From Erinaceus europaeus (lineage: Eukaryota; Chordata; Mammalia; Eulipotyphla; Erinaceidae): a stretch of 64,000 nt of DNA. The notes beneath the pieces were generated by a model. It saw only the letters and a list, made by a program, of their open reading frames with translations. It searched no databases and was not told the DNA's origin. Of the stretch, positions 1 through 56,735 are shown one piece after another; the first letter of the stretch is position 1; every line of letters begins with the position of its first letter. The position numbers and the translations under genes were made by a program. The stretch spans positions 68,174,302 to 68,238,301 of the forward strand of contig NC_080175.1 of NCBI RefSeq assembly GCF_950295315.1, given 5' to 3'.

Positions 1-745
1 CAACCTAACCAACGATTGCCACCTCAACATGCTTCACTTCAGACTGTGTCCAGAGACTTCACGTGTGGAATGACAACCCTTCAGCTTCATTACTCGGGTG
101 AGACCTTTCCTTTCATAGTATACTTTAATTCCATCTCAGGTGGTTCACTTTCTAACAGTCCCAAAACCTGGATATACACCAGTTTCTGTGAGAGAGAGCA
201 TATGTTCACACTTATCCTAAACTACTACAAAATATATACCTGAAAGCAGAAGTACACTAGAGTTTGCAGTGAGTACCCCCCTAACACTTCCTCTCCACTA
301 TTCCAACCTTTGGGTCCATGATTGCTCAACAATTTGTTTGGCTTCGTATGTTAACTGTCTTTTCAGTCACCAGGTTCCAGATGTCATCAGGATGTCGGCC
401 AGGCTTCCCTGGACTGAAGACCCCACCAATGTGTCCTGGAGCTCAGCTTCCCCAGAGACCCACCCTACTAGGGAAAGAGAGAGGCAGACTGGGAGTATGG
501 ACCGACCAGTCAACGCCCATGTTCAGCGGGGAAGCAATGACAGAAGCCAGACCTTCTACCTTCTGCAACCCACAACGACCCTGGGTCCATGCTCCCAGAG
601 GGATAGAGAATGGGAAAGCTATCAGGGGAGGGGGTGGGATATGGAGATTGGGTGGTGGGAATTGTGTGGAGTTGTACCCCTTCTACCCTATGGTTTTGTT
701 AATTAATCCTTTCTTAAATAAAAAAGAAAAAAAAAGAAAATAGTA
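1..745 (+). mobile_element. H1 retroposon, short form
   Basis: The window opens inside this copy. Positions 1-265 match the 5' part of the long copy at 4851-6790, and 266-720 match its last 420 bases, with about 1 kb of the middle absent. It ends with an A-rich tail after 'ttaattaatcctttcttaaa'. Two overlapping ORFs of 141-145 codons recur in other copies but have no recognisable domain, so I treat the family as non-coding. Confidence 0.75.
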
Positions 746-1164
746 AATGCATACATTAAAGAAAAAAATAAAAGCACGAGTAAAAAATAGATAAAAAGAT
801 GGCATGTCAAGGTTACATTCATTGTATATGTATTTTACAGAAAGAAACCCATGAACAATAGACTAATAATAAAATGTGGCTTGATTCCAAGGTCCTCTTT
901 CCCTATATTCAAAATAATAGAAAATTCAGGATCCTTGTGCAGGATTAATAGATTTGTGTTTATAATTTAAGACTTACGAAGATAATACTATTTAAAAGGA
1001 AAGAAAAATTACCAAGTGAGAATTAGACTACAAGGGTAATTGAATTAGTTACTGTCCTTCCTTTAGTTGTAGAAGGAAATGATATTGTACTGACTATTCT
1101 AATTAGACTTGCAGATGATTCAAGTCCCATGAAAATGGTTCTAAGACACACCCAGTTCTTAATG
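746..1164. other. AT-rich stretch, nothing recognised
   Basis: No long ORF, RNA gene or repeat could be recognised. Confidence 0.4.
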
Positions 1165-1420
1165 ATCCTAAGAGCTAGTATTTGCTGACTCTTTGATTCT
1201 CTACTTCCCTTTGTTCTAAGTATTTTGTGTGCACTGACTTTTTAAATGTTCGTGATACCTTCGGGTTGCCCCCACTTTATACCAAGGCACTGAAGGACAC
1301 AGATGAGAAGTGTCTTATGGAGAACATGCCCTGTAAGTAGGCAAAACTGGACTCAAACCCTGGCTGTCTAACTCCAGAGACCACAGGCCTAGTCACTGCA
1401 CTCTGCTTTAGTCTGGCTTG
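1165..1420 (-). repeat. MIR SINE (ancient)
   Basis: In reverse, the order of landmarks matches MIR: 'ttctaagtattttgtgtgc', the 'acagatgagaag' block, 'ctggactcaaaccctggct' (degenerate B box) and 'actccagagaccac'. It is strongly diverged, as expected of a repeat that predates the placental radiation. Confidence 0.75.
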
Positions 1421-2459
1421 GCTCTGGATTTCCCTTTATATCTGGACAAATGTCAGCCATGGCGTCTTGGAGGCCAGATTCACTTAATTTGTTTTCTTTC
1501 TGAGTCATATCTCTACAGTTTATTGTAATAGACTTCACAGATGAAGGATGATGAACAGAGGGCTTAATGAGTTCTCCCTACTTAACACTGCCAGAAAAAG
1601 GAAAAAGATAAAATTCCAAATATCCTTGAATTATGATAGAGTTAAAGGTCAATTTTTAATGTAGAATCAAAACTCAAATGGTAATCTTTTAAATACAGCC
1701 ACAGTATTTATCTGGACCATTTCTTTAAAACAGAGCAGATACAGTAAATCTTGAGTTTTTATTCCCCTCCTCAGGTCTTTGTTTTTTAGCTGCAGAACTC
1801 TTTGTTCAAACTCAAATTTACTGAGAAGTTTAATATTGAAAACCTATTAAATTAGAGCTATTTCCCTGACTACAGTGAGTTCTTTAATCTGATTTCACTC
1901 CTGAACATAGAATACTCCAGGCTGTAGAAATGTCTGGGGTTAGCCTATGGAAAGATGTATGGCTTCCTGAATAGCTGTGGACCTCCTAAGCTCCATCCTG
2001 AATGGCTGTGGAAAGGATTTGTGACTCTGACTTCTATAGAGGCTCAGCGTCAATCAGGCTGGGTGATACGGAAGCCTCTAGGCTTCTTGGAACCCTCAGA
2101 GAGGGTTCCTTGTTGCATACTTCCAAGACCTTAAAATCTGCACTGAAATGATCCTGTAGTGATAAAAATATCAAGAATGAATGAATGAAAAGAAAGGAAA
2201 AGGGTAACAGTGTAGACATTCAGAGAGCATATGTAACCAAAGTTGGCCAACTGCAGCCTCCTATGGCTCAATAAAAGTTATTTTTTTCTCAGTTGAAATA
2301 AACATTAATTCTTTTCAGTAACAATTCACTGTTACAGTAAGTGTTGAGTTTTCTAGAAAACTTTGAACTAAAACGGAGACTTAATTATATCCTTATTATT
2401 CACATGGTTTTAAATGGTGAGATAGCATCACTAATGTTTTATTTACTATTTCTGATAAT
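1421..2459. other. Unique-looking sequence
   Basis: No conserved ORF, splice-bounded exon or RNA gene was seen. The 61-codon minus ORF at 2034-2219 looks fortuitous. Confidence 0.4.
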
Positions 2460-2800
2460 TCATAGCTCTTTTTTTATTAGAGAGATGATTAATGGTTTAT
2501 AGTAAATACAGTTATTGGTACATTGCTTATTTTATTTTATTCTTTATTTTTTTACTGGGGGGATTTATGGTTTTTAGTAAATACAGTTGTAGCTACATGT
2601 GTAAAGCTTCTCAGTTTTCTGCAAAACACTCTCACCCCTAGCCTTGGTCCCCCTCTACCATCATGCACCAGGACCTGAAAGCCTTCCTCCGCTCCCAGAG
2701 TCCTTTACTTTTGTGCAATACACCAGACCCAGCACAAAGCAGAACAATAAAAGGTTTTAAATAGCAACAGGAGTTCCAATTCGATTCGACTGTGCTTTGC
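2460..2800 (-). mobile_element. L1 3' UTR fragments
   Basis: The reverse strand carries the L1 3' UTR signature seen at 34575-34775, such as 'aaaggactctggg' and 'catgcaccaggacctg' on the plus strand. A second, shorter copy of the terminal 60 bases ('gtttatagtaaatacag') lies at 2465-2523, so two tails appear stacked. Confidence 0.65.
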
Positions 2801-2974
2801 ATGGACTCATGCTTGCAGTGGGGTGCAGGAGGTCTGCCCATATTTTCAGGTGTGTCTCTACTGCCAGAAACAGCCAGTGTTTGAGGGCTTTAGTAGAAGA
2901 GGAACAGCAAAACTTTGAATGGTTGACTTCTTGCTTTTAAGGGTTTTCGGTGGGTAAAGCAGAATATGAATGCT

Positions 2975-3285
2975 ACTCATGTCAGTGGTTAGATGGATGA
3001 GAAAGCGTCCTGGAAGTAAGGAAGTGAAAGACACCTACCAGATGGTTTCACTCATATGTAAAATACAGAGAAATGAAACCCATGAAATTGCAAAATAAAT
3101 AAATAAGTAACCAAGTCATCTTTTAGACCTTGAGAAAACCATGGTGGTTATCTTTGGGAGAGTTGTGTGTTGGGGGGGGGTGGAGAAAGAGAACTTTGGT
3201 GGTGAGAGTAGTATGTGGAATATATTTGTATTATATTACAACCTTATAAATCATTATTAAATCATTAATAACATAAAAAAGACAT
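2975..3285 (+). mobile_element. Old L1 3' end with H2-like tail
   Basis: 'ggtttcactcatatgtaaaa' is a typical decayed end of L1 ORF2. It is followed by 'ttggtggtgagagtagtatg' and 'aaatcattattaaatcatta', which resemble the 3' end of the H2 copy at 32340-32510. Boundaries are approximate. Confidence 0.5.
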
Positions 3286-5445: not shown

Positions 5446-5720
5446 TTCTTCTTCTAGCGTTTGCCCTTCTTCCGTAGCCAGTCAACAGCATCAGGTTGAG
5501 CCGATGTAAAGTTTCGAGACCTCCTTTGAATCTGGAGAGGTGGCAGTCGTTGACTATGTGGGTCATAGTCTGTCTGTAACCGCAGGGGCAGTTCGGGTCG
5601 TCTCTGGCTCCCCAGCGATGGAACATAGCGGCGCACCGGCCATGGCCTGTTCAATAGCGATTGAGGAGGGCCCAATCATAACGTGCTAGGTCAAAGCCGG
5701 GTTGACGCTTGCAGGGGTCT
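5446..5720 (-). mobile_element. Vingi-like LINE, 5'-truncated 3' end
   Basis: A CpG-rich 275-bp insertion splits H1. It is flanked by an exact 12-bp TSD, 'gcatacttcagt' (5434-5445 and 5721-5732). On the minus strand the 3' end is 'gctagaagaagaa', a short GAA repeat rather than poly(A), so it was not primed like L1. The last ~40 bases match the 3' end of the 192-bp element at 28667-28858. The encoded knuckle protein end and the hedgehog setting suggest Vingi. Confidence 0.8.
5454..5718 (-). pseudogene. C-terminal end of a Vingi-type reverse transcriptase
   Basis: The minus strand reads a LINE protein C-terminus with the zinc-knuckle pattern CPCGYRQTMTHIVNDC (C-x-C-x8-H-x4-C), followed by a 'GGLETLH' block. 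In another frame comes 'DAVDWLRKKGKR' and a TAG stop (5454-5456) that lies within the 3' tail of the element, so the coding region runs almost to the 3' terminus. Two lesions are visible: an in-frame TGA before 'TGHGRC', explained by a CpG decay, and a single-base deletion before the DAVDW block. Endonuclease and RT domains are absent because of 5' truncation. The clade assignment is from memory of the motif and of hedgehog Vingi, not from a search. Confidence 0.7.
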
Positions 5721-6790
5721 GCATACTTCAGTAATGACTCTTTAGTCAATATCAGGCCACCCGATCAGCTGGGGCCCTAGTCAGGGAGTCCTGAGATGCC
5801 CAAACAGACATGATGGGCCTAGACCTCGAATAGATCCCTCTCTCCATTGTTACTGGTCATCTCCATCAGGAACAACACAATAGACCCCTTTGTGGGCCCC
5901 AATAGGACCTTGCCCTCAACATGGATCAACAACAGTAGAGAATGTTTCATCCTCTCAAGGGAGGCTGGACAACATATTCTCTCTATCATCTGAGGAAGAT
6001 GGGTCCTGAAATTGGGGCAGCCTGGAATGTTCCTACTCATAACCACAGAATGTGAGCTCGGATCTACAGGGATGCAGAGGTTATATAGGCTTCTAAGCTG
6101 AATACGGGCCCCAGATCAATTCAAATCAACACTATTTATACACCTTTCCCATATTTGGGAGCTACTCTCTTTCCTGATCCAAATTTCTAGCCCTTCTTCC
6201 AGCTCTGATGTCATCTCCCCAGACAAAAACTTGGGTCCACCTGCATATCAGATATCAGGCTCAGGAAAAAGCTAGTATAGTCATAGGCCCTTTGGAATAT
6301 AACTAAAATAAGCCTACTAGCTATCTTCAAAATGGAGACCCCAAATCTTCATCTGCAATATTCTTGGCTTTAGATTCATGACTAGTAAACAATTTGTTTG
6401 GCTTTATATGTTAACTTTTTTTTTTTTTCAGTCACCGGGTTCCAGATGCTACCACGATGTCAAATGGACTTTCCTGGGCAGACGACCCCACCAATATGTC
6501 CTAGAGCCCACTTCCCCAGAGCCCTGCCTCACTAGGGAAAGAGACAGACAGACTGGGAGTATGGATTGAACTGCCAAGACCCATGTTCAGTGGGGAAGCA
6601 AACCAGACCTTCCACTTTCTGCACCCCATAATGACCCTAGGTCCATATTCCCAGAGGATTAAAGAATAGGAAAGCTATCAGGGGTGGGGATGGGATACGG
6701 AGTTCTGGTGGTGGGGACTGTGTGGAGTTGTACTCCTCTTGTTCTATGGTTTTGACACTGTTTCCTTTTTATAAATAAAAATTAAAAAAA

Positions 6791-28252: not shown

Positions 28253-28666
28253 TCTCCTGGTACAGTCACATGGGTTTCCCTCTGAGTGTCTGTATCCTAA
28301 TTTCCTCTTTTTATAAGGATACTCATCATACTGGATTAAAGGTCATCTATACATCACATTTGAACTTAATGACTTCTTTATCTTATTTGCAAAAATAGTC
28401 ACAGTCTGAAGCAATGATGTTAGAATGTCAGTATGTGAAAGACTGACTGGCGGTTGAGGGAAGGTGGTGGCACAATTTAACCCAGAATAGTTCCAGACAC
28501 CCAGGTAGTTTTTTTTTTTTTAAATTATCTTGTTTGTTTTTTGTTTTGTTTGTTCTTTGCCTCCAGGGTTATATTGCTGGGGCTCAGTGCCTGCACTACA
28601 AATTCACTGCTCCTGGAGGCTATTTTTCCCCCTTTTGTTGCCTTTGTTGTTTATCATTGTTGTTGT

Positions 28667-28736
28667 GGGATGCATTGGATCGACCTTCTCGTGGTGCATC
28701 CCGTGAGTACCCATTCATTGGGGAAACTGACGATCC
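28667..28736 (+). ncRNA. HDV-like self-cleaving ribozyme at the element's 5' end
   Basis: The first 70 nt fold into the nested double pseudoknot of HDV-like ribozymes. P1 pairs 28667-28674 (GGGATGCA) with 28695-28702 (TGCATCCC). P2 pairs 28677-28682 (GGATCG) with 28731-28736 (CGATCC). P3 pairs 28683-28685 (ACC) with 28693-28695 (GGT), so P1's last pair and P3 share one base. L3 is TTCTCGT, close to the family's UCCUCGC-type loop. P4 pairs 28710-28713 (CCCA) with 28719-28722 (TGGG). J4/2 ends CTGA, matching the CNRA active-site motif directly before P2, which would make C28727 the catalytic cytosine. P1.1 is weak. Predicted cleavage falls just before G28667, exactly at the TSD boundary. LINEs such as R2, RTE and L1Tc use this ribozyme family to cut out their 5' end. 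Confidence 0.85.
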
Positions 28737-28858
28737 TTCCTAGCCGACTGAATCCACATGGATCCCAGTCACTTTCAAAGCCAGCAACAAGCAGCTCCTG
28801 ACAGCTTTCAATCTGACCTGTTGACTGGCTACGTAAGAAGGGCAAATGCTAGAAGAAG
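28667..28858 (+). mobile_element. Vingi-derived non-autonomous retroelement (192 bp)
   Basis: A short element inserted in the GTT linker of a SINE. It is flanked by an 11-bp duplication 'attgttgttgt' (28656-28666 and 28859-28869; the site is itself repetitive). Its last ~40 bases ('gttgactggctacgtaagaa' onward, ending 'gctagaagaag') match the 3' end of the longer Vingi piece at 5446-5720. Its 5' 70 nt form an HDV-like ribozyme. It therefore has both LINE ends and almost none of the coding middle. Internally deleted Vingi families are reported for the European hedgehog, so this is probably one of them. Confidence 0.8.
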
Positions 28859-29091
28859 ATTGTTGTTGTTGTTATTGCTGTTGTTGTTGGGTAGGACAGA
28901 GAGAAATCCAGAGAGGAGGGGAAGACATAGAGGGGGAAAGAAAGACACCTGCAGGTGGGGAACCGGGGGCTTCACCGCTTGTAAAGCGACTCCCTGCAGG
29001 TGGGGAACCAGGGGCTCGATCCAGGATCCTTGCTCTGGTCCTTGCGCTTTGCACCATGTGCGCTTAACCTGCTGCATTACCGCTCAGCTCC

Positions 29092-29278
29092 CTTAAATTA
29101 TCTTTATTTATTTGATAGAGGCATTCAGAAACCGAGAGGAAGGAGGAGGTAGATAGGGAGAGAGACAGAGAGACTCCTGCAGCACTGCTTCACTACATGC
29201 AAAGTAGGTGGGGACTGGGGAGCTTAAACCCAGTTCCTTGCTCATTGTAACGTGTACTCAACTAGGTGTGTCACCCAG
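29092..29278 (-). mobile_element. SINE type a
   Basis: 'attatctttatttatttgat', body, and 'ctcaactaggtgtgtcaccc'. The 'ccctgcag' block is partly deleted. It directly abuts the head of the previous SINE. Confidence 0.75.
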
Positions 29279-35775: not shown

Positions 35776-38700
35776 TCAGCCTGAGAGTGAGATCATCCCG
35801 TATTCATCCTTGCGTTTCTGACTTATTTCACTCAACATGATTTTTTCAAGGTCCATCCAAGATCGGCTGAAAACGGTGAAGTCACCATTTTTTACAGCTG
35901 AGTAGTATTCCATTGTGTATATATACCACAACTTGCTCAGCCACTCATCTGTTGTTGGACACCTGGGTTGCTTCCAGGTTTTGGCTGCTATTACAAATTG
36001 TGCTGCCAAGAACATATGTGTACACAGATCATTTTGGATGGATGTGTTGGGTTCCTTAGGATATATCTCCAGGAGGGGAATTGCAGGGTCATAGGGTAGG
36101 TCCATTTCTAGCCTTCTGAGAGTTCTCCGGACTGTTCTCCACAGAGATTGGACCAATTGACATTCCCACCAGCAGTGCAGGAGGGTTCCTTTGACCCCAC
36201 ACCCTCTCCAGCATTTGCTGCTGTTATCTTTTCTGATGTGTGACATTCTCACAGGAGTGAAGTGATATCTCATTGTTGTCTTGATTTGCATTTCTCTGAC
36301 AATCAGAGACTTGGAGCATTTTTTCATGTGTTTCTCAGCCTTTTGGATCTCTTCTGTGGTGAATATTCTGTCCAAGTCCTTCCCCCATTTTTGGATGGGG
36401 TTATTTGTTGTCTTGTTGTTGAGTCTGGCAAGCTCTTTATATATGTTGGTTATTAAACTCTTATCTGATGTATGGCATGTAAAGATCTTCTCCCATTCTG
36501 TGAGGGGTCTCTTGATTTGGGTAGTGGTTTCTTTTGCTGGGAAGAAGCTTTTTAATTTGATGTAGTCCCATAGGTTTATACTTGCCTTAGTCTTCCTTGT
36601 AATTGGATTCGTTTCATTGAAAATGTCTTTAAAATTTATGCGGAAAAGAGTTCTGCCAATATTTTCCTCTAAGTATCTGATAGTTTCTGGTCTAACATCC
36701 AAGTCCTTGATCCACTTGGAATTTACTTTTGTATTTGGTGAAATACAGTGCTTCAGTTTCATTCTTTTGCATGTTTCAACCCATTGTTTCCAACACCATT
36801 TGTTGAAGAGACTCGGCTTCCCCCATATAATAGTCTGGGCCCCTTTGTCAAAGATTAGATGTCCATACGTGTGGGGCCTCATTTCTGGGCTCTCAATTCT
36901 ATTCCACTGGTCAGTGTGTCTGTACATGTTACAGTACCAAGCAGTTTTGATGACAATGGCCCTATAATACAGTTTGAGATCTGGCAGTGTGATGCCTCCG
37001 GTTCTGTTCTTTTTTCTCAAGATTGTTTTGGCAATTCTAGGTCTTTTCTGGTTCCAGATAAACATTTGTAGCATTTGTTCTATTCTCCTAAAAAATGTGG
37101 TTGGGATCTTGATGGGGATAGCATTAAATTTGTAGATGGCTCTGGGTAATATATTCATTCTGATGATGTTAATTCTTCCAACCCATGAACATGGAATATC
37201 TTTCCACTTCTTTGTGTCTTTTTCAATTTCTTTGAGTAGTGACTCATAATTTTCAGTATACAAGTCTTTCACTTCTTTGGTTAGGTTTATTCCTAGATAT
37301 TTTATTGTTTTTGTTGCTATAGAAAAAGGAACTGATTTCTGGATTTCAATTTCTTCTAACTTAGTGTTTGCATAGAGGAATGCCACTGACTTTTGAATGT
37401 TAATTTTATAGCCTGACACATTACTGTATTGCCTGATGATTTCCAAAAGCTTCTTGCTGGATTCCTTAGGTTTTTCCATGTATACTATCATGTCATCTGC
37501 AAATAAGGAGAGTTTGACTTCTCTTCCAATCTGTATGCCTTTAATTCCTTGCTCCTGCCTGATTGCTATGGCAAGAGCTTCCAACACTATGTTGAATACT
37601 AATGGTGATAGTGGACATCCCTGTCTAGTACCTGATCTGAGGGGAAATGCTTCCAGTTTTTCACCATTGAGTATGATGTTGGCTGTAGGTTTGCTATATA
37701 TAGACTCCACTATCTTCAGGAATTTTCCATCTATTCCTATTTTTTGTAGTGTTTTGATCATAAAGGGATGTTGTATTTTGTCAAAGGCTTTCTCTGCATC
37801 TATTGATATGACCATGTGGTTTTTGGTCTTGCTTTTGTTGATGTGGTGGATCACATTGATTGATTTACGTATATTAAACCAACCTTGCATGCCTGGGATA
37901 AACCCCACTTGGTCATGATGAACAATTTTTTTGATATACTGCTGTATCCGGTTGGCTAGAATTTTGTTCAATATTTTCACATCTATGTTCATCAGAGATA
38001 TTGGTCTGTAGTTTTCTTTTTTGGTTGTGTCCCTGTCTGCTTTTGGTATCAGGGTGATGTTGGCTTCATAGAAGCTGGCAGGGAGTATTCCAGTGTCTTC
38101 AATCTTCTGGAAGACTTTTAAAAGTAGAGGTATTAGTTCTTCTTTGAAAGTTTTGTAGAATTCATTTGTAAAACCATCTGGTCCAGGACTTTTATTTTTG
38201 GGAAGATTTTTGATAACTGTTTCAATTTCATTAGCTGTGATGGGCCTGTTCATGTTATCCACATCCTCTTTACTTAGTTTTGGAAGTTGGTAGGTATCTA
38301 GGAAATCATTCATTTCTTCCAGGTTCTCTAGCTTGGTGGCATATAGTTGTTCATAGAAGCCTCGCATGATATGTTGAATTTCTGCAGTGTCTGTTGTGAT
38401 TTCTCCTCTTTCATTTACTATCCGATTTATTTGGGTCTTCTCCCTTTTTTGTTTTGTGAGTCTGGCTAAAGGTTTGTCGATTTTGTTTACTCTTTCGAAG
38501 AACCAACATTTACTTTCATTGATCTTTTGTATGGTTTTCCTATTCTCAATGTTATTTATTTCTGCCCTAACTTTAGTAATTTCTGTCCTTCTGGTTGCTT
38601 TAGGATTCCTTTGTTGTTCTTCTTCTAGGTCTTTGAGATGTGCAATCAGGCTGTTTATTTGTGCCTTTTCTTGTTTCCTAATGTGTGCTTGTATAGCTAT

Positions 38701-39594
38701 GAACTTTCCTCTTAGGACTGCTTTAGCTGTGTCCCAAATATTTTGATAGCTTGTGTCTTCATTTTCATTGAACTCTCGAAACATTTTGATTTCTTCCTTG
38801 ATTTCCTCTTTGACCCAGAAATTGTTAAGAAGTGTACTGTTGAGCTTCCACATTTTGGCACCATTACTAATCTTTTGTTGATTGTTAAGTGTTAGTTTAA
38901 TTCCACTGTGGTCTGAGAAGATGCTTGGGATGATTTCAATGCTCTTGAATTGGCTGATGCTGTCTTTGTGGCCTAACATATGGTCTATCCTTGAGAATGA
39001 TCCATGTGGATTTGAGTAAAATGTGTATTCCAGTTTCTTGGGATGAAAGACTCTGAAAATGTCCAATAGTTCTAGTTTATCTATCTCTTCATTTAGCTCC
39101 CTTATGTCTTTACTGATTTTCTGCCTGGATGATCTGTCTAGTTGAGATAGTGGGGTGTTGAAGTCCCCTACTATGATTGTGTTACTGTTAATATATTGCT
39201 GTAGCTCTTTCAGTAGAAGTTTGATGTATTTAGATGGCTTCTTATTGGGTGCATAGATGTTAATAATTGTTAAGTCCTTTTGATTGACTGATCCTCTGAG
39301 CATTAAGTAGTGTCCATTCCTATCTTTTTTAATCTTATCTATTTTAAAGTCTATCATGTCAGATATGAGAATAGCTGTTCCTGCCCTTTTTTGTGGGCCA
39401 TTGGCTTGAATGATAGTTTTCCATCCTTTCACTTTAAGTCTGTGTTTGTCTTGTTGAGTTAGGTGAGTTTCCTGTAGACAACATATTGTTGGGTTGTGTT
39501 TTCTGATCCATCTTCCTACTCTGTGTCTTTTAATAGGTGAATTCAGGCCATTGACATTTATTGATATCAAAGATTGAAGATATTTTAATGCCAT
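35776..39594 (-). CDS. L1 ORF2 protein (endonuclease / reverse transcriptase), intact
   Basis: An uninterrupted 1,272-codon frame, close to the ~1,275 residues of human ORF2p. The N-terminal APE-type endonuclease (about 1-235) keeps E42 in LQET, D144/N146 in GDFNTPL, D204 in SRIDHML and D228/H229 in SDHSG. The reverse transcriptase core has NKSPGPDGF near 467-475, the [10 protein letters not shown] block near 597-606 and catalytic FADD at 698-701. The C-terminal cysteine motif [18 protein letters not shown] is complete. The protein nicks DNA and copies RNA on the exposed end (target-primed reverse transcription), acting mainly on its own RNA and on SINE-type riders. ORF1 lies 60 bp upstream in the usual bicistronic order. 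With no lost key residue, the enzyme may still work, although ORF1 of this copy is broken. Confidence 0.95.
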
Positions 39595-39654
39595 TCTATA
39601 ATGTAGAGTTTTAGAGTGTTTTGATATATGTCCTATTTGTGGTGGTCTGGTTGT

Positions 39655-40628
39655 TTATAGGAGACCTTTCAGAACTTCTTTCAGGGCAGGCTTGGTGATG
39701 GTTGCTTCCTTCAACTGTTGCTTGTCTGAGAAGGTTTTGATGCTTCCATCTAGTCTGAATGACAGTCTAGCAGGATATAGTATTCTTGGCTGAAAGCCTT
39801 TCTCATTGAGCACTCGATAGATATCTTGCCATTCTCTTCTGGCCTGTAGTGTTTGTATGGAGAAGTCTGCTGCTAATCTTATGGGTTTTCCTTTGTAGGT
39901 GACTCTTTGTTTTTCTCTTGCAGCCTTGAGGATCCTTTCTTTATCCTTATTCATTTCCAATCTAAGTCTGACATGTCTTGGTGTCTTTAGGTCTGGGTTA
40001 ATTCTGTTTGGGACCCTCTGGGCTTCTTGAATCTTTATGTCTTTGGTGTTGTCTAGACTAGAGAAATTTTCAGCTATTATGGCCTGGAGAACGCTTTCTT
40101 CCTCCCCTTCTCTTTCTTCCTCTGGTAAGCCAATAAGCGTATATTGTTTCTTTTGAAGTCATCCCATAGGACTCTGTTGTTGTTTTCAGTATCTCTTAAT
40201 CTCTTTTTGAGATCTCTTACTTCTTTTTTAGTTGTCTCTAATTCATCCTCAATCTTGCTAATTCTGTCTTCAGCCTCATTGATTCTATTCTCTCTGCCCT
40301 CTACTGCTTTCTGGAGTTCATCTATTTTGTTGCCCTGCTCTGATACTGTTTTAGCTTGTTCAGCTAGTTGCCTTCTTAGCTCAGCGATTTCAGCTTTCAG
40401 CTCTCTAATAACCATGAGATAATTAGAATTTTCTTCCATATTCTCATTTGTTGTTCCTGCATTTCTGATTATAATTTTTTCAAATTCTTTACTCACTCCT
40501 GTTATTATTTCCTTAGCTAATGTTTGGATGTTGGACTCATTGTTTTGTGCTTCACCCTCTGGAGGACTTTTAGCTGGACTCTTCTCCTGGTTCGAGTCTC
40601 CAATATTTTTTCTTGTTGTTTTAACCAT
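39655..40628 (-). pseudogene. L1 ORF1 with a single frameshift
   Basis: The frame opens at 40628 (MVKTTRKNIGDS) and runs through an acidic N-terminus and a long coiled coil (heptads from about residue 60 to 150, 'RISKIEDELETTKKEVRDLK'). It loses frame near 40135-40142. From there a second frame continues without a stop through the RNA-binding and C-terminal domains ('IKIQEAQRVPNRINPDLKTP', 'ERILKAAREKQ', 'FQPRILYPARLSF') to 39655. A single missing base explains the break. ORF1p is the RNA-binding trimer that coats L1 RNA, and this copy could not make it at full length. The partner copy at 50647-51561 is unshifted here and supports the call. Confidence 0.9.
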
Positions 40629-41281
40629 TTTATATAAGTTAACATTTTTTTCAATCCCTGAGTTGGAGTCCAGTGGTGTAAAAGCCTTTTTTTTTCCTTT
40701 TCCCCTGTAGGCTATGGGAGCCTGAGGGCTTTTAAACTATCAATAGGCTTCTTAGCTTAATCACTGACTCCTGACCAAGAGATAAAGCAGGGTGTGGCAG
40801 AGATAATCCAGTGGTTATGCAAAGAGACTTTCACAGCCCCTCAGCTATGCCACCGAGGTATAGGTCTTCTCCTGAGTTTCCTGGTTAGATCTCTGTCCCC
40901 TGGTGTCCCTCCCTGTTGCTGCTCCAGATTCTGAGGGTAGTAGCAATGGAGACTCAGAGTTGCACTTGGTGAGTCTCTGGGGAGTCCTTTCCTCCCTTCA
41001 GCTGTCCCCTTGTTGGTGGAGCAGACTGGAGGTGTTGTCTCCACTGACAAACTGTCGAACTGTTAGCAGTCACTTAATCTCTCCTTAGGCCCCTCTCTCC
41101 TCTGTCACCAGCCACGCGTGTTTGTACTCACGGGTGATTTACTGGGTTTCTGTGGTCATTCTAGTCCTGTCTTGTTTCGGTCCGGGTGTTCTCCTTTGGT
41201 ATTCCTAGTTGATCCGGGAGAGGAGAGGAGAGGAGAGAAAGCGATCTGCTGCTCGTAGCTCCGCCTCCGGAAGTCGAATCC
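40629..41281 (-). promoter_or_regulatory. L1 5' UTR (promoter type 1)
   Basis: About 650 bp between the TSD and ORF1. It starts GGATTCGACTTCCGGAGG on minus, is CpG-rich in its first 150 bp and carries an AGGAG-type repeat (41216-41238). By position it is the internal promoter. It bears no resemblance to the 5' UTR of the L1 at 49-53 kb. Confidence 0.7.
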
Positions 41282-43317: not shown

Positions 43318-43412
43318 AAAAGTTATGGAATATTTTACAAATTTATGTGTCATTCTTGCTCAGGGTCCATGCTAATCTCTGCAACCTTCCAATGTTATTA
43401 TTGGTACTGAGA
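43318..43412 (-). pseudogene. U6 snRNA pseudogene, old
   Basis: In reverse, 'ttatggaatattttacaaat', 'gtgtcattcttgctcagggt', 'ccatgctaatctctgcaacc' and 'ttccaatgttattattgg' follow the U6 order with many changes. The 5' end of U6 is worn away. Much older than the copy at 53178-53283. Confidence 0.8.
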
Positions 43413-43911
43413 TTTTTATGATGATTTAACTAAGATGATATGTCAGAATAAAATATATAACAGTTCATTGTTTGCCCCTGCCTTGATGATCACCACTTTC
43501 ATGTTGAAATATCACCCTGAAGTTATGGGAGTTCTTTCATTAAACAACTGTCACCATAATTTCTGTATTTTTCTATTATAAAGGTCTATTTGGCAGCTTT
43601 GATATTACATCTATCAGCTCAGTGGTATACATGTTATAAATACCCTGCCTCAGCTTCACTCAAGATATTAAAATTTTTATTTGTATTCTCAGGAAATAAA
43701 GATTGTATGGTCAGTTTACATGTGTCAAAAAAAGCAAGCAAATCTGAAAAATAAAATTCCCTACTTTATAACACATTCTATTTAAAAAGTCATAAGAATA
43801 TTATATTTACATTTACTTTAGTAGTATATGTGATGGCTATAGAAATTTAGAATATATGTATTTATGTGCATATATTATGCTTTTTTGTAATTTACTGTTA
43901 CTTTCTTTTTT
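43413..43911. other. AT-rich unique-looking sequence
   Basis: Nothing recognised. Confidence 0.4.
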
Positions 43912-53168: not shown

Positions 53169-53177
53169 TTTTTTTTT

Positions 53178-53226
53178 AAACTATGGAGCGCTCCATGAAT
53201 TAGCGTGTCATCCTAGTGCAGGGGCC

Positions 53227-53267
<41 letters not shown>

Positions 53268-53283
53268 TTGCTGAAGCAAGCAC
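53178..53283 (-). pseudogene. RNU6: U6 snRNA retrocopy, fused to L1
   Basis: Near full-length U6 in reverse: 'gtgcttgcttcagcaacaca' start, 'attggaacgatacagagaag', 'attagcatggcccctgcac' and a changed 3' stem. Several substitutions from the functional gene. It has no U6-type upstream promoter on its 5' side, so it is a retrocopy. Its 3' end meets A9 and the L1 G-run directly. Confidence 0.9.
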
Positions 53284-55762: not shown

Positions 55763-56542
55763 TTAAGCCACTGATTTGCAACTTTAATTAAAATAAGTTT
55801 TGTCAGGGTAGTGAAAATGTTCTCAACAAGTTCTGACAGTACTTGGAAGTTTTACATAAAAAGTTTCAACTAAAAAATAATACACTTAGACACAAGTTTT
55901 ACATTTAAGAATTCTACCAAGTTCAACAAATAAAGAATGGTGGCATTTCAATTTACATCAGTTCTCTGGTGCAGAATAAAATTTCCATGTACGATATTCC
56001 CACTGCATAGACGACTTCTAGTGGGCATTGGCGTACAGTCTGTTTTTGATGAAGATGACGTGGGACAGATGTTGCCTGATGCCAGGATAGTGCTGAATGT
56101 GACAAAACCAGCAAGACATATTAAGATATTTCTCCTTTTCTTGAACTGTCAGATCAACTATAAAGTAGTGCAGCCCATAGTACAGTAAGACATCTGCTAA
56201 GGTAAAGTTATATCCTGTAAGGTAGACTTTACCCTCAAGGTAAGAATTAAGATTCTTCAAGAGAGTGCGGACTTCCTCTTTACCACAGGGCCCATCTACT
56301 CGAGTTACCCTATATTCCAGCCACTGTTGAACAATTGCCTTTTCCTCTGTAGTATACCCAAGTAAATACTCTTTGTTGGCTTGCTTGACCAGGTGAGCTG
56401 CTATAGTCGTCAATCCTGTTAGACTTAGACCATTGTTTGTTTGAAGGACAGGAACCTGCTGCTTGCCCTGTACACTGTATTTGTGTCCCCCTTGCAAAAC
56501 CAGCCATTTCTCCAGAAGCGTCAGCTCCCCGGCTGCCGCCAT
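55763..56542 (-). pseudogene. EEF1E1: EEF1E1 retrocopy with intact reading frame
   Basis: An intronless copy of EEF1E1 (AIMP3/p18), the small scaffold subunit of the multi-tRNA-synthetase complex. CDS is 56018-56542, 174 codons, the length of the human protein. I chose the start at MAAAGELTLLEKW; an upstream in-frame Met (56557) is not part of the family. Hallmarks include VPVLQTNNG, SLTGLTTIAAHLVKQANKEY (the GST-N-like linker), EEKAIVQQWLEYRV, KVYLTGYNFTLADVLLYYGL (GST-C fold) and KYLNMSCWFCHIQHYPGIRQ. About 255 bp of 3' UTR follow, with ATTAAA near 55785 and an A-rich tail at 55747-55762. The parent gene is spliced, so this is reverse-transcribed mRNA. No clear TSD was found. No stop or frameshift has arisen, so it is either young or retained; the sequence alone cannot show expression. 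Confidence 0.85.
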
Positions 56543-56589
56543 CTCCCAGCTGAGCACCTGCTGAGCTATTTTACTGAATGGGCATCTAC

Positions 56590-56735
56590 CATTTAATTTT
56601 AATTTTTTTTTTTTGTCATTGGGACCTCACTGCCCTGGACAGAGGCTTTCAGAATTAGATAGAAAATGAAGAAGAGACATCAAAGCACTGAAGCTTCCTC
56701 TAGTGCAATGGGTTCTGGCTCAAATGTGTTGCACA
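56590..56735 (-). mobile_element. SINE type d-like
   Basis: T-run, 'agaagagacatcaaagcact', 'gaagcttcctctagtgcaat' and a worn head. Confidence 0.55.

Follow-up and report, generated by a model that had tools for sequence, protein, structure and literature searches.

According to PMC4035085, trypanosomatid LINEs of the ingi/L1Tc clade and their short relatives begin with an HDV-like ribozyme some 77 nt long; several of these elements cleave in vitro and others that were tested did not. The Drosophila R2 element has a 5′ ribozyme which makes the 5′ end of the element, and one class of R2 SIDEs consists of the 5′ ribozyme and the R2 3′ end (PMC3414825). The CPEB3 ribozyme is located in a Cpeb3 intron (PMC10919898). 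5′ HDV-like ribozymes are already known in insect and trypanosome LINEs, and a mammal is an unexpected host. Mammalian LINEs are usually viewed as driven by their own promoters. Here we describe a candidate ribozyme of this class at the start of a short LINE derivative from the hedgehog, within a 64-kb stretch of DNA (the window, meaning the whole stretch analysed), which was searched together with 300 kb of neighbouring sequence (364 kb in all).

Fold of the candidate ribozyme

The plus strand at positions 28667–28736 of the window can form a full HDV-like double pseudoknot, the parts of which follow each other in the order P1, J1/2 (ATT), P2, P3, L3, P3′, P1′, J1.1/4 (GTGAGTA), P4, L4 (TTCAT), P4′, J4/2 (GAAA and then the CNRA motif) and P2′; the remaining letters are given with the coordinates in Table 1. 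The initial annotation had placed these parts by hand, and its P2, P3, L3, P4 and CTGA were all recovered at the same positions. The helix that it had drawn as P1 (GGGATGCA/TGCATCCC) is also present, but its length of 8 bp is one pair too many: since the eighth pair and P3 (ACC/GGT) both need T28695, P1 is read as 7 bp. A program-made list of inverted repeats contains 28667–28674/28695–28702 and 28677–28682/28731–28736, plus one short palindrome.

Table 1 Features of the element and of the candidate ribozyme (window coordinates)
Feature	Position	Strand	Remarks
5′-truncated copy of the same LINE	5448–5721	–	TSD ACTGAAGTATGC; defines the 3′ end of the element
Upstream TSD of the window copy, ATTGTTGTTGT	28656–28666	+	Weak; within a TTG repeat
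192-bp internally deleted LINE derivative	28667–28858	+	BLAST against L003:2954–6019
HDV-like self-cleaving ribozyme (predicted)	28667–28736	+	Predicted cut directly 5′ of G28667; descriptor and Rfam match
P1 5′ strand, GGGATGC	28667–28673	+	Pairs with 28696–28702, 7 bp
J1/2	28674–28676	+	
P2 5′ strand, GGATCG	28677–28682	+	6 bp with 28731–28736
P3 5′ strand, ACC	28683–28685	+	3 bp with 28693–28695
L3, TTCTCGT	28686–28692	+	Aligned to the corresponding loop of the Rfam HDV consensus
P3 3′ strand, GGT	28693–28695	+	
P1 3′ strand, GCATCCC	28696–28702	+	Directly 3′ of P3
J1.1/4	28703–28709	+	
P4 5′ strand, CCCA	28710–28713	+	4 bp with 28719–28722
P4 3′ strand, TGGG	28719–28722	+	
J4/2	28723–28730	+	Contains CTGA
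CNRA (CTGA)	28727–28730	+	C28727 is the candidate catalytic cytosine
P2 3′ strand, CGATCC	28731–28736	+	Right after CTGA
Beginning of the LINE ORF, MDPSHFQSQQQ...	28758–28807	+	ATG at element base 92; frame ended by the internal deletion
LINE 3′ end	28808–28858	+	Ends CTAGAAGAAG
Downstream TSD of the window copy, ATTGTTGTTGT	28859–28869	+	

A P1 of about 7 bp is given for HDV-like ribozymes in PMC3774820. In the window copy and in a second copy of the element (L024), P1 runs for 7 bp from the G at the predicted cleavage site and P3 stands directly before its 3′ strand, which is not the case in two further copies (L003 and L020). The P2 pseudoknot, for which at least 5 bp are expected, has 6 bp (GGATCG/CGATCC), and the putative catalytic cytosine lies within J4/2 in the CNRA context that is the rule for HDV-like ribozymes. 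In these ribozymes L3 and J1.1/4 are linked by a P1.1 helix of one or two pairs; by inspection, only about one Watson-Crick pair is found there. The predicted 70-base fold lies inside the limits stated in the literature. Plain folding, a method that does not cover pseudoknots, retains P1 and P4 and pairs C28727 elsewhere, with 12 of 200 shuffles folding equally well or better.

The element, its parent LINE and their 5′ ends

The element which begins with this fold corresponds to bases 1–149 and 3015–3066 of its parent LINE, and the two BLAST matches share 8 bases where they meet. Its LINE-derived 3′ end, roughly 50 bases long and tipped with AGAAG repeats, matches a second copy on the minus strand (about 5448–5499) when the window is compared with itself by BLAST. 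The neighbouring sequence contains a full-length copy of the parent (L003:2954–6019, 3,066 bp), at a distance of about 58 kb; the frame of this copy is split into several pieces, and it is therefore dead. It has the same 5′ end as the window copy, with 95.8% identity over the ribozyme and a damaged P1. The initial annotation's placement of an HDV-like fold exactly where a LINE-derived element begins is supported. The copy L024, about 98 kb distant, has a join identical to that of the window copy and is 97.9% identical to it over the 192 bases. A different join, from parent base 128 to 3006 onward, is found in L020:3459–3645 and L013:5682–5811 (minus strand), which indicates that there are at least two deletion forms of the LINE.

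Among the pieces of the full-length copy are an endonuclease (PF14529, E 2e-9) and a reverse transcriptase (RVT_1, PF00078, E 9e-19), both above the cut-offs; the two C-terminal pieces had no Pfam match at E 0.01, RNase H included, in this single, decayed copy whose frames are broken. The Vingi clade, a sister group of ingi, is defined by an AP-type endonuclease and a reverse transcriptase and by having no RNase H domain, and the first two are present here. We take the LINE to be of the Vingi type, probably Vingi-1 with its internally deleted hedgehog families. Such families, together with Vingi-1, were reportedly described from the European hedgehog by Kojima et al. in 2011, and that report is not known to describe a ribozyme. 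A search for relatives of the reverse transcriptase among proteins gave 203 at E 0.001; among the matches listed, the best ten are 50–57% identical and none carries a clade name. In viral contigs, four pattern matches to the reverse transcriptase were obtained, none of which was confirmed, and the 25-base core of the ribozyme had no match there. No paper linking Vingi with a ribozyme of its own was found in the literature searched, a set which the original papers on Vingi and on HDV-like ribozymes lie outside; the word "ribozyme" is absent from PMC5753468, and "vingi" from PMC4035085. It is likely that a ribozyme in hedgehog Vingi has no earlier report.

Ten copies of the LINE and its derivatives were counted in the 364 kb (BLAST at E 1e-5), with the copy spanning the L027/L028 border taken as one and an 18-base tail scrap (L027:317–334, E 0.038) left out. 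Within L027 (216–334, minus strand), a 5′-truncated copy adjoins a second scrap of the 3′ tail of the same LINE. The initial annotation had held that 5′ ends away from this G would speak against its reading; three of the ten copies begin at base 1 (window, L024 and L003) and one at base 3 (L020), the others starting at base 60 (L013) or, for five of them, deep inside (1698 to 2972). This is the pattern to be expected of intact and 5′-truncated copies. The target-site duplication of L024 (TGAGTTTT) abuts G1 exactly, that of L003 (AGTGCTAATC, 10 bp) is followed by one extra A before GGG, and none was found for L020 or L013. Where found, the duplications are 8–12 bp long, and the copies lie at unrelated sites; in the four that reach base 1 or nearly so, the sequence upstream of it is unrelated by eye. 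These positions place the predicted cut on the element boundary, to the base in two insertions and within one base in the third. The statement that the predicted cut falls on the first base after the duplication is thereby borne out: the duplication of the window copy is weak, given the TTG repeat around it, and L024 provides independent support.

The window element is flanked by the two halves of an apparent SINE-like repeat (28540–28666 and 28859–29100), which we presume to be a SINE, and is inserted in its TTG repeat. Elsewhere in the window, the minus strand carries an element at 35776–40736, presumably L1-like. One of its frames runs for 1,292 codons without a stop, and upstream of this lies an ORF that is open in two frames which overlap. 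Two U6 snRNA matches on the same strand (53177–53283, 99.4 bits, and 43319–43419, 54.6 bits) are above the Rfam gathering score and of full model length. An open frame of 202 codons at 56018–56626, also on the minus strand, is probably a processed pseudogene, and the gene it resembles is, we assume, EEF1E1.

Conservation of the fold and its chance expectation

Four copies carry the ribozyme region. The folds of the window copy and L024 are intact and identical (70/70), P1 is damaged in the other two (the full-length L003 and L020), and none of the copies in the 364 kb combines full length with an intact ribozyme. P2, P3 and P4 pair in all four rows, one P2 pair being G-U. CTGA is unchanged in every row, the loss of its cytosine from other copies being a further observation that the initial annotation would have counted against the ribozyme. 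No pair is altered on both sides, a result of little weight either way with four copies and only three distinct sequences.

The damaged P1 in half of these copies speaks for an alternative in which the conserved 5′ end is an internal promoter or a translation leader, and the pseudoknot incidental or no longer catalytic. A precedent is the promoter function of Pr77, a 77-nt sequence at the 5′ end of the trypanosomatid elements which PMC8190864 and PMC4748587 describe as a transcription activator. The complete fold with CNRA, however, is unexpected by chance under the strict descriptor (below), and we consider this explanation unlikely. Regarding a pol III promoter in particular, no A-box/B-box pair in the correct order and spacing stands out within the element: B-box near-matches with one mismatch occur at element bases 12 and 107, and the A-box is matched with two mismatches only, at 53 and 160. 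The pol III reading has little support.

That a single short repeat resembles such a ribozyme by chance is very improbable, although two results lean towards it. The first comes from a loose descriptor, in which one G-U per helix was permitted, P2 could be as short as 5 bp and P4 was not needed. Its only match in the window is the 28667 site, and it gave 28 rows in 200 one-strand shuffled windows (more than one row per site being possible), which means that the bare pattern alone is not decisive. The second is the weakness of the Rfam E-values. The HDV model (RF00094, HDV_ribozyme) matched 28665–28734 with 25.7 bits (E 0.19 for 801 bases), and three matches of unrelated families ranked ahead of it by E-value (CrcZ, 0.02; htlv_FSE, 0.054 and 0.17). 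L024 was matched with 26.4 bits (E 5.3 in a 30-kb search), and L003 and L020 had no HDV match at E up to 10 in that search. In the Rfam check suggested in the initial annotation, the model does place a match on this stretch, its sole HDV-type match in the window, but the score falls short of the gathering cut-off, and no HDV-like match in the window reaches it. Both copies stand at about half the gathering score of 50 that marks membership of RF00094; since this family takes its name from the ribozyme of hepatitis delta virus, the low score concerns RF00094 membership and bears less on the wider HDV-like class. Rfam by itself is not decisive.

Against chance stands the strict descriptor, the limits of which were fixed after the site had been seen (Watson-Crick pairs only, P2 of 6–7 bp, P4 and CNRA required). 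It matched the 64-kb window once, at 28667, with no match on the opposite strand, and of 11,898 dinucleotide-shuffled windows, one strand each, none contained a match. A Watson-Crick descriptor without P4, run over both strands of the 364 kb, picked out two places; one is the window copy and the other L024:1129, and both are base 1 of the element. The complete fold with CNRA is far from chance.

The least probable of the explanations, namely that a domesticated host element cuts host transcripts at this locus, could draw on the window copy satisfying the whole descriptor and on an action of element ribozymes on host mRNA having been raised for Leishmania SIDERs in PMC4035085, but the 97.9% identity with a copy some 98 kb off is that expected of a young repeat.

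Proposed origin of the 5′ ends and comparison with known systems

The analysis confirms that the fold can form, that independent insertions carry it at their first base, and that the region is common to full-length and short copies. Positions 28667–28736 are very probably an HDV-like self-cleaving ribozyme with which a Vingi-type LINE begins, retained by its short internally deleted derivatives, and the interpretation of the initial annotation is, as a whole, partly supported. In the mechanism we propose, transcription would enter a copy from its surroundings, such as a host intron, and the nascent RNA would fold into the double pseudoknot and cut itself directly before G28667, so that the template for retrotransposition would begin exactly at base 1 of the element. 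The protein of full LINE copies may then copy this RNA, in trans, via its 3′ end by target-primed reverse transcription, and the resulting insertions would start at the ribozyme G.

The broader proposal has perhaps an even chance of being correct: a mammalian LINE that was active recently, together with its SINE-like derivatives, would make their 5′ ends from host co-transcripts by means of an HDV-like ribozyme, with no need for a promoter of their own, as the first such system in a mammal, either inherited with the ingi/Vingi lineage or acquired by horizontal transfer. If true, this would mean that the lifestyle of R2 and ingi also occurs in mammals, with the 5′ end of a LINE set by self-cleavage, and would explain the continued mobility of short deleted derivatives which have only a ribozyme end and a 3′ end. 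It would also provide a compact cassette for retrotransposition assays and a plausible route for HDV-like ribozymes into mammalian introns, and it would make it testable where CPEB3 and other HDV-like ribozymes of mammals come from.

The Vingi-1 families of the hedgehog reportedly show the combination found here, with endonuclease and reverse transcriptase and with short internally deleted forms. The CPEB3 ribozyme is likewise HDV-like and mammalian, but is single-copy, is not known to lie in any retrotransposon and sits in an intron of its host gene, whereas the present candidate is at the 5′ end of a LINE. The ingi/L1Tc clade (Pr77; L1Tc, NARTco and SIDER) also has a 5′ ribozyme on a LINE and on its short derivatives, in protist hosts as opposed to a mammal; the likeness drawn here is one of arrangement. 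R2 inserts in the 28S gene and is cut from rRNA co-transcripts, in contrast to the hedgehog copies with their unrelated sites and 8–12 bp duplications. The R2 SIDEs, with a ribozyme end joined to a LINE 3′ end, have the same layout as the window element.
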